Shown in pieces: positions 9,968 to 12,073 of a DNA stretch of 12,193 nucleotides. Source of the stretch: Nitrospirae bacterium CG2_30_53_67. GTDB lineage: Bacteria; CG2-30-53-67. The number at the start of each line of letters is the position of its first letter. Position 1 is the stretch's first letter. The translations under genes were made by a program, and so were the position numbers. The notes below the pieces were generated by a model. That model had not been told where the DNA came from and did no database searches. It saw only the letters and a list, made by a program, of their open reading frames with translations. Location of the stretch: the NCBI GenBank assembly GCA_001873285.1, contig MNYV01000130.1:1-12193 (forward strand). Direction: 5' to 3'.

Positions 9968-10211
9968 TGGAACAGGATTCAAGGTGAGTGAGATTTATCA
10001 TAGGAGGAGATACACATCGATCGTCTGAGTTTACAGGCTTCGGGCAAGGCGAACGCTTTGGATCTTTTATCGTAATAAACAAATTCACATACAGAGCGAC
10101 AGAACAAAGCAGACCGAGGCGCGAGGAAATCGAAGAGTGAGGCGTACTGGTAGTACGCCGCAACGACGAGACGAGGAAGCAACAAAGGTATGCAAAGTTA
10201 TGTCGCTCTGT
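9968..10211. repeat. Hairpin-rich dispersed-repeat-like region
   Basis: No gene is supported. The right half is a structured element bounded by inverted copies of ACAGAGCGACA (10091-10101, and its complement at 10201-10211), the second one touching the tautomerase stop codon. In its middle, GGCGTACT-GGT-AGTACGCC forms a perfect 8-bp hairpin (10141-10159). The 121-base unit resembles REP-like dispersed repeats and could fold as the 3' end of the tautomerase transcript. The left half (9968-10090) holds only short frames without known relatives. Confidence 0.55.
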
Positions 10212-10397
10212 CTACATATCCGAAAAGAGTTTGCCCCCCTTGCCCCAGTTTTCCTTCTCGACCTCTTCGATCACGATGTAGGTGTGTTCGCTCGGCTTGC
10301 CGGCCACCCGTTCGAGGGTCTCGGAAAACTCCTTCACAATCTTGGCCTTCTGTTCCCTGGACAGCTTGCCCAGAAGCTTCAGATTCACGTAAGGCAT
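10212..10397 (-). CDS. 4-oxalocrotonate tautomerase family protein
   Basis: A 61-residue protein of the small tautomerase superfamily, which uses the N-terminal proline, exposed after removal of Met, as catalytic base. It begins MPYVNLKLLGKLSREQKAKI and later has the typical VIEEVEKENWGKGG. Pro1 is present and the residue equivalent to Phe50 is Trp. Judged by simple alignment to the classic enzyme, the catalytic arginines at 11 and 39 are Leu and Tyr. The enzyme may therefore act on a substrate other than oxalocrotonate; none can be named. AAGGAG lies 7 bases before the ATG. The start overlaps the end of the upstream unknown gene by 13 bases, so the two are surely one operon. The structured repeat begins directly after its stop. 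Confidence 0.85.
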   Translation of the reverse strand: MPYVNLKLLGKLSREQKAKIVKEFSETLERVAGKPSEHTYIVIEEVEKENWGKGGKLFSDM

Positions 10398-10742: not shown

Positions 10743-10787
10743 ACAAGGGACAGTCCTATTCTTCCCGTAAAAACAGTTCTTGTCAAG
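10743..10787 (-). promoter_or_regulatory. Promoter-bearing repeat, copy A
   Basis: On the minus strand TTGACA (10781-10786) is followed after 17 bases by AAGAAT (10758-10763), then TGTCCCTTGT (10743-10752). This would start transcription near 10751 for the unknown gene and tautomerase. The segment matches copy B at 11988-12033 with about 80% identity. The most conserved parts are ACAAGGGACA, GTAAAAAC and TTGTCAAG in plus-strand reading. Confidence 0.55.
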
Positions 10788-10841
10788 CTGAGAAAGACGG
10801 TGGAACGAAAGGGTGATTGCCGAGTGTTCAAGTTGCTCCAT

Positions 10842-11093
10842 TTATCGGAGGGGTATCCGTTCCGGAATACTCTCTTTTCTGATGCGGATCTCCGCCACAG
10901 GGGAGTTGACCTCAAAATATCTCGCCACTTCATTGGAAATAAAGGACCAAACATCATCCGGGATTGAAGACATCCTGCTGAATGCGGCATGATTTTCTCT
11001 TACGATCTTCTCACAAATTTTTTCAAGCTGCGGTGTCGGAACTAAAATGTGTCCGGCAAAAGCATCACCTTGATATTCAAACCAATCGATCAC
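10842..11093 (-). pseudogene. ImmA/IrrE-type protease, detached C-terminal half
   Basis: This 83-codon frame starts at GTG 11091-11093 and is in the same frame as the upstream protease half, separated only by TAA and two codons (S, D). Its beginning, VIDWFEYQGDAFAGHILVP, is the well-known second conserved block of ImmA/IrrE (DUF955) proteins, in which the Glu of EYQ is expected to be the third zinc ligand. The rest (helical segment around ICEKIVRENHAAF, end IRKESIPERIPLR) is normal for the family's C-terminus. It could be made only by reinitiation or readthrough. A purine-rich GGGAGGG lies about 13 bases before the GTG, so reinitiation is conceivable. Confidence 0.7.
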
Positions 11094-11099
11094 GTCGGA

Positions 11100-11459
11100 T
11101 TACAAGCCCTCCCTCCACTCCATATACTCATGCACTAATTTAAATTGTAAATCAGCATAAAACGACTCATGCAATACACAATGACCAAGCTCATGGGCAA
11201 GGGTGAAACGGCATTTCTCATGCATTTGGTCATACTGAATCTCATCAACCATGATGGTCGTTCGGTCGGCCGTAAGAAAACCGTTTAAACCATGATCTCT
11301 GTATAGTCGTGGGAAAGGGTATATGTTCAGACGGAGTTTCAGCTCAATTATTTCTTCAATCGGGATGGGAATCTCTTGCGATGGATGCAGCTCATGCAGA
11401 AACTCTCTGGCTTTTCTCCCGATCTCAGCGTAAGTAAGACGGGGAAGTTCAAAACTCAC
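11100..11459 (-). CDS. ImmA/IrrE-type metallopeptidase, N-terminal half
   Basis: A 119-residue product ending at TAA (11100-11102). It carries the HELGH zinc motif (residues 89-93, in FTLAHELGHCVLH) preceded by DRTTIMVDEIQYDQ, typical of ImmA/IrrE (DUF955) proteases that cleave XRE-type repressors. The in-frame continuation after the stop contains the second conserved block, so the gene is a ~205-residue protease split by a nonsense codon between HExxH and the third ligand; alone this half is probably inactive. It starts at GTG, overlapping the regulator stop as GTGA, with AAAGGA 6 bases upstream. The tight overlap with the XRE gene indicates regulator and protease act together. Confidence 0.8.
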   Translation of the reverse strand: MSFELPRLTYAEIGRKAREFLHELHPSQEIPIPIEEIIELKLRLNIYPFPRLYRDHGLNGFLTADRTTIMVDEIQYDQMHEKCRFTLAHELGHCVLHESFYADLQFKLVHEYMEWREGL

Positions 11460-11836
11460 CGCAATTCCTTTCGGATAGATTCAAGCAGATTCTTCAGATC
11501 CTCGTCATCAAGCTTCTTTCCCCTGACTGTCCTATATAAAATGGGAAGCGCTTTGATCATTTCGCGATCCGAGACTATGTCGGAAGGTATTTTCCCAACA
11601 CCGGTGGAAGCCAGATCACAAAACGTGAGCCAGTCATCACTTCCTTGCTTGATTCTCAAAGCTGCTGCATACTCCTTCCTTTTTTCTTTGGACTGCGGCG
11701 GCGCCAACAAGTCTCTCTCAATTTTACTTATGTTTCCCGGATCAAACCCGTTGTGCCTACAAAATTCCCGTAATGTAAGACCAAGCTCAATTCTTTTTTG
11801 TTTAAAAAATTCGCCGAATGTGACCCCGGGTTTCAT
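11456..11836 (-). CDS. XRE-family transcriptional regulator
   Basis: A 126-residue DNA-binding protein. The helix-turn-helix occupies about residues 7-60 (FGEFFKQKRIELGLTLREFC, then GFDPGNISKIERD with the recognition helix). The C-terminal half (LPILYRTVRGKKLDDEDLKN, LLESIRKEL) is of the kind found in regulators paired with ImmA proteases. I chose ATG 11836 over GTG 11845 because GGAGGTGA lies 5 bases upstream, a nearly perfect ribosome binding site that the GTG start would sit inside. Its stop overlaps the protease start by 4 bases. It likely represses its own promoter through the inverted repeat at 11857-11880, which covers the -10. Confidence 0.88.
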   Translation of the reverse strand: MKPGVTFGEFFKQKRIELGLTLREFCRHNGFDPGNISKIERDLLAPPQSKEKRKEYAAALRIKQGSDDWLTFCDLASTGVGKIPSDIVSDREMIKALPILYRTVRGKKLDDEDLKNLLESIRKELR

Positions 11837-11856: not shown

Positions 11857-11894
11857 CTGTTGTTAAATTTACTACAACAGACCGGACTTGTCAA
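11857..11894 (-). promoter_or_regulatory. Promoter and operator of the XRE/ImmA operon
   Basis: On the minus strand TTGACA (11889-11894) is followed after 17 bases by TAAATT (11866-11871), giving a start near 11859 and a leader of about 23 bases. An inverted repeat, CTGTTGT (11857-11863) and ACAACAG (11874-11880), brackets the -10, with the palindrome TAAATTTA between them. A regulator bound here would block the polymerase. Confidence 0.6.
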
Positions 11895-11987: not shown

Positions 11988-12033
11988 ACAAGGGACAATG
12001 CCAATTTTCCCCGTAAAAACCGTATTTGTCAAG
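11988..12033 (-). promoter_or_regulatory. Promoter-bearing repeat, copy B
   Basis: Second copy of the segment at 10743-10787. On the minus strand TTGACA (12027-12032) is followed after 17 bases by GAAAAT (12004-12009) and then by TGTCCCTTGT. It lies about 95 bases upstream of the XRE operon's own promoter. With copy A it brackets the XRE/ImmA module as a direct repeat. Confidence 0.5.
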
Positions 12034-12073
12034 AGAAGAAATAAATATTCAAGTGTGACAAGTTATTCTCAAC

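Follow-up and report, generated by a model that had tools for sequence, protein, structure and literature searches.

A CapH/CapP- or ImmR/ImmA-like repressor-protease operon in a Nitrospirae bacterium, with a protease gene probably inactivated recently by a nonsense mutation

Several described regulatory systems pair an XRE-type repressor with a protease of the ImmA/IrrE family. In CapH/CapP of CBASS and in PprI/DdrO of Deinococcus, the protease cleaves the repressor after activation by a signal such as ssDNA (PMC10904395). ImmR/ImmA of ICEBs1 and TnSmu1 consists of a two-gene operon encoding an XRE-type repressor and an HExxH anti-repressor protease that cleaves the repressor once it is activated by a signal (PMC10233336). 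Rir, a COG2856 protein, has been reported to act on the repressor Crh without cleavage (PMC7907104), and Xre-COG2856 pairs have been predicted to be toxin-antitoxin-like (Makarova 2009, PMC2701414).

The operon described here lies on the minus strand of a 12,193-nucleotide contig (MNYV01000130.1; the window) of Nitrospirae bacterium CG2_30_53_67, and its features are collected in Table 1. Like CapH/CapP, it has the gene order repressor, then M78 protease. The PADLOC capP entry matched the N-terminal half of the window protease with E = 2e-9 (3.5e-13 for the intact relative L016), and capH matched the window repressor weakly (E = 0.002). CapP (structure 7T5T), however, is 291 aa long, whereas the window protease would be about 205 aa and is broken. 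In addition, CBASS or other defence genes were not recognised beside the operon on the 12 kb contig, and its neighbors are instead a 100-aa unknown protein, a tautomerase and a GlpD-like protein. The two-gene arrangement is also that of ImmR/ImmA, but the window operon has a broken protease and housekeeping neighbors, and neither conjugative nor phage genes were recognised on the contig. More generally, no mobile genes were recognised in the list of open reading frames of the 12 kb window, which extends only 0.3 kb past the operon on its upstream side. DdrO/IrrE shares the M78 fold, in a protease that cleaves an XRE-type repressor, but IrrE has an additional GAF-like domain at its C terminus and DdrO governs a whole regulon (PMC10904395), in contrast to the single operator in this genome. 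Finally, the pairing and sporadic distribution (the repressor occurs in 12 of 386 genomes) are those of the Xre-COG2856 pairs. A toxin-antitoxin role was argued against in the ImmRA case (PMC10233336).

Table 1. Features of the two-gene operon and of the interrupted protease frame; positions are those of the window.
Feature	Position	Strand	Remarks
XRE/CapH-like helix-turn-helix repressor, intact	11456..11836	-	TGA overlaps the GTG of the protease gene by 4 nt
Predicted palindromic operator TGTTGTAGTAAATTTAACAACA	11858..11879	-	Overlaps the repressor's -10 element; unique in the genome
Sigma-70-like promoter of the two-gene operon, TTGACA-17-TAAATT	11866..11894	-	
N-terminal 119 codons of the ImmA/IrrE (M78) protease	11103..11459	-	HELGH (zinc ligands 1 and 2), without the third ligand
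Premature in-frame TAA, context TAAT	11100..11102	-	Falls where a variable linker joins two predicted helices
C-terminal remainder, 85 codons and stop	10842..11099	-	Invariant Glu, the expected third ligand, in FEYQGDAFAG
GTG codon, 6 nt past the TAA	11091..11093	-	Possible but weak restart site

Some other features of the window and of related loci may be recorded here. A 41-nt direct repeat, 78% identical between its copies, flanks the two-gene module (10755-10795 and 12001-12041). These are its only two copies in the genome, and each contains a minus-strand promoter-like TTGACA-17-hexamer, so that transposition is not claimed although the repeat looked like an insertion scar. A dispersed intergenic repeat of about 135 nt with inverted ends (10080-10220) is matched 6 times in this genome and 23 times in a genome of the same genus (G001), several of the matches being 91-94% identical over their length. 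On the minus strand, the contig end (12149-12193) encodes a C-terminus, GLAGLIAMKRRKP, followed by a stop and a possible terminator hairpin; this C-terminus resembles a PEP-CTERM sorting signal. At another family locus (L002, 2199-2822), a DUF5343 gene directly follows an intact repressor/protease pair and matches the model of a candidate defence protein, PDC-M34A (E = 8.5e-81), which hints at an association with defence islands.

The regulatory half of the module appears complete. The repressor gene starts at ATG 11836 behind a strong Shine-Dalgarno sequence, and an XRE-type repressor stands directly upstream, on the same strand, of every family protease that has room for one on its contig. 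The predicted operator lies at the repressor's own promoter. Of 38 family repressors, 20 have this type of palindrome upstream, compared with none in 7,600 shuffles; with a relaxed form the count is 23, compared with 0.2% in shuffles. The operator consensus, TGTTGTA-N7-TACAACA, spans 21-22 bp, accompanies CapH-like repressors from several phyla, often over the -10 element, and occurs in two copies at some loci (operator loci: the window, L002-L005, L010-L012, L014-L019, L022, L024, L028, L036, L039 and L041). Since the genome has a single copy of the operator, the repressor is predicted, at the stringency of our scan, to target only its own operon.

Both the upstream repressor and the predicted operator are thus as in modules of the CapH/CapP or ImmR/ImmA type, but the protease is not contained in one translated chain. 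The original prediction held that the two halves share a frame with only TAA, S and D between them, and this is what we find on the minus strand. The frame opens at GTG 11459 and runs for 119 codons, ending in HEYMEWREGL, to the TAA at 11102-11100. Beyond it come S, D and a GTG, and the frame stays open until the stop at 10844-10842, which gives 204 sense codons in addition to the internal TAA. No other stop or frameshift occurs in these 205 codons, so that the sole lesion is one TAA. Against Pfam Peptidase_M78 (cut-off 22 bits), the N-half alone scored 20.1 bits and the C-half alone 13.4 bits, both below the cut-off, while the halves joined through the stop scored 32.7 bits. The protein of an intact relative also aligned with the window protease at 46% identity over residues 3-200, in an alignment that spans the one TAA. 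Because the relative aligns across the TAA and the joined halves pass the M78 cut-off, the C-half was once truly coding, and its open frame is not accidental. It is probably untranslated today. With HELGH before the TAA and the invariant Glu after it, the zinc ligands fall on either side of the stop, and the gene is therefore a disrupted, not a working, member of the ImmA/IrrE family (Peptidase_M78, COG2856). No second M78 gene was found in the rest of this genome.

We compared the gene with about 38 close relatives from many phyla, which came from an alignment-based search; a third scan of viral contigs added only distant phage homologues. The uninterrupted relatives number 35, and the broken members are the window gene, L005 in G001 and L041, whose frameshift may have arisen in sequencing. 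Two further candidates were set aside, since the apparent stop of L021 is the gene's natural end and L037 has a run of N, an assembly gap, in place of a proven frameshift. The closest relatives of the window protease are L016 (Syntrophaceae, 60% identity) and L010 (Desulfobacterales, 57%). Intact relatives with 47-60% identity read uninterrupted past the TAA site, where the closest have P, P, D or S in a non-conserved linker of variable length. Among the family relatives there were no other split members and none with a stop at this site. With the N-half as sole query, plasmids, phages, IMG/VR and GTDB genome contigs yielded no relative, so that the alignment-based search was needed. The comparison of homologues turned up none in which the N-half is conserved by itself as a complete protein, an alternative that the original prediction had named.

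Nine residues are invariant in 35 aligned sequences: D72, R84, A88, H89, E90, H93, H97, E128 and L139. H89 and H93 lie within HELGH. E128 lies within FEYQGDAFAG, and from the general HExxH...E arrangement of such proteases we take it to be the third zinc ligand. It lies past the stop and is lost with the break, as had been anticipated. In a fold prediction that included 34 relatives and put a residue in place of the TAA, the read-through model reached a pLDDT of 95.9 and a pTM of 0.92. Residue 120, the stop, falls in a loop between helix 109-117 and helix 121-139, and E128 is on the latter. Truncation removes helix 121-139 and everything downstream, that is, the second half of the predicted fold. 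The model has the M78 fold, its best matches among solved structures being IrrE/PprI and CapP, with modest TM-scores (~0.5); 3DTI, 3DTE and 8SLN headed the list, CapP was among the four best, and CapP was the only match in a sequence-profile search of the PDB. The high-confidence fold, the joined score and the homologues bear out the assignment to ImmA/IrrE made from the bare sequence. Judging from the model, the truncated product, which keeps HELGH and loses the third-ligand helix, should be non-catalytic.

The break appears to be young, because the C-half is well conserved and has acquired no further stop or frameshift. It keeps almost all columns that are at least 75% conserved, the exceptions being A to G and S to N. 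Identity between the window and L016 is 63% before the stop and 55% after it, compared with 62% and 63% between L016 and L010; this slight excess of change in the window C-half fits a recent loss and is not proof of one. A dN/dS test of relaxed constraint was uninformative, with synonymous sites saturated, and no closely related genome with the intact ancestral protease at the same locus was found.

A second loss may have occurred in the same genus. At L005, G001 has the same gene pair with the repressor and operator intact. There the protease matches the family only as far as HEIGHIV (profile residue 97) and then passes into unrelated sequence, a 166-residue open stretch in another frame with a weak match to the candidate defence protein PDC-M32A. 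(The region of this break is L005 1780-2276, and a Fic-domain gene lies upstream.) The G001 and window loci are at different places, with different flanking genes, and G001 has one other M78 gene, in a 376-codon open frame. This comparison, of two genomes only, is suggestive of protease losses through distinct events in two congeners, both of which retained the repressor. In S. mutans, immA deletion is tolerated whereas immR could not be deleted (PMC10233336), so the asymmetry of a lost protease and a kept repressor is unsurprising.

Taken together, we think it likely that the operon is a self-regulated switch like CapH/CapP or ImmR/ImmA and that a nonsense mutation recently inactivated its protease gene. 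By analogy with the studied systems, the repressor of intact relatives would bind the palindrome over its own promoter, a signal (DNA damage or ssDNA in those systems) would activate the protease, and the activated protease would cleave the repressor and relieve repression. In the window operon, the ribosome would halt after codon 119 and release a non-catalytic product without the third-ligand helix. The repressor would then not be removed and, leakage aside, would keep the operon promoter shut, leaving the module as a fossil or a locked autorepressor. We infer cleavage of the window repressor, its inducing signal and the locked state from these analogies. Of the two outcomes that the original prediction had offered, a very recent loss with a locked regulator is thus the one favored, by the homologues, by the intact neighboring repressor and operator, and by the second, independent protease loss in the genus.

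The other outcome, a two-chain or readthrough protease, fared poorly. Re-initiation at the GTG only 6 nt past the TAA, followed by assembly of the halves, would draw on an open C-half and on the predicted purine-rich stretch before this GTG, which is indeed there: an AGGGAGG tract that pairs with the anti-SD at -11.9 kcal/mol, in the top 1% of the window. However, its last paired base is 14 nt from GTG 11093, more than the usual spacing, and the closest relatives do not have the tract at the equivalent codons. The split would also place the zinc ligands on two chains, as in no other family member, and we regard this reading as very improbable, although restart at a low level may occur. Programmed or leaky readthrough of the TAA, which would yield a small amount of full-length protease, fits the common frame on either side of the stop and the conserved C-half, but a stop occurs at this site in no relative. 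Furthermore, the context TAAT corresponds to UAAU, the most efficient bacterial termination tetranucleotide reported (PMC5289835), so readthrough is unlikely and this reading seems to us hardly credible.

The organism's protease gene would be intact if the stop came from an error of assembly or consensus, or from several strains collapsed into one sequence. The genome is an assembly of 183 contigs, and the change is a single damaging one in an otherwise clean frame whose C-half keeps its conserved residues. Against this, the lesion is a substitution-type stop and not a homopolymer slip, the congener G001 independently lost the same gene, and the other long frames of the window are all open (by eye from their translations, glycosyltransferase-like, TolC-like, PurE-like, PurD-like, GlpD-like and the repressor). 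We therefore consider an error unlikely. It is decidedly unlikely, in our judgment, that the truncated N-half has been retained to partner the repressor without proteolysis, acting as an anti-repressor, co-repressor or decoy. Such a role has a precedent in the action of Rir on Crh, and both congeners keep the repressor, the operator and the N-terminal protease ORF through HExxH. Yet the break points differ (about 95 compared with 119 family residues), the G001 tail is unrelated, so that no common fragment is conserved, the short version is found in no other relative, and truncation takes away the second half of the predicted fold. The N-half ORF and the repressor remain tidy, and the N-half fragment may retain some residual function. 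If a non-catalytic N-half fragment that still binds the repressor does exist in this genus, an inducible switch would have become a different kind of regulator.

Ordinary gene loss is the most likely account of the window operon, a known kind of system with an ordinary kind of damage. As a nonsense-mutated switch, it would be a natural case of a locked repressor, in which the antirepressor protease is lost while the repressor and operator persist, perhaps twice independently in one genus. With the predicted operator, targets of the repressor can be foreseen and the cleavage model is readily tested. The more useful findings may be that this widespread but sporadic family of CapH/CapP-like two-gene modules has a recurring operator, and that the protease appears to have been lost repeatedly within one genus.
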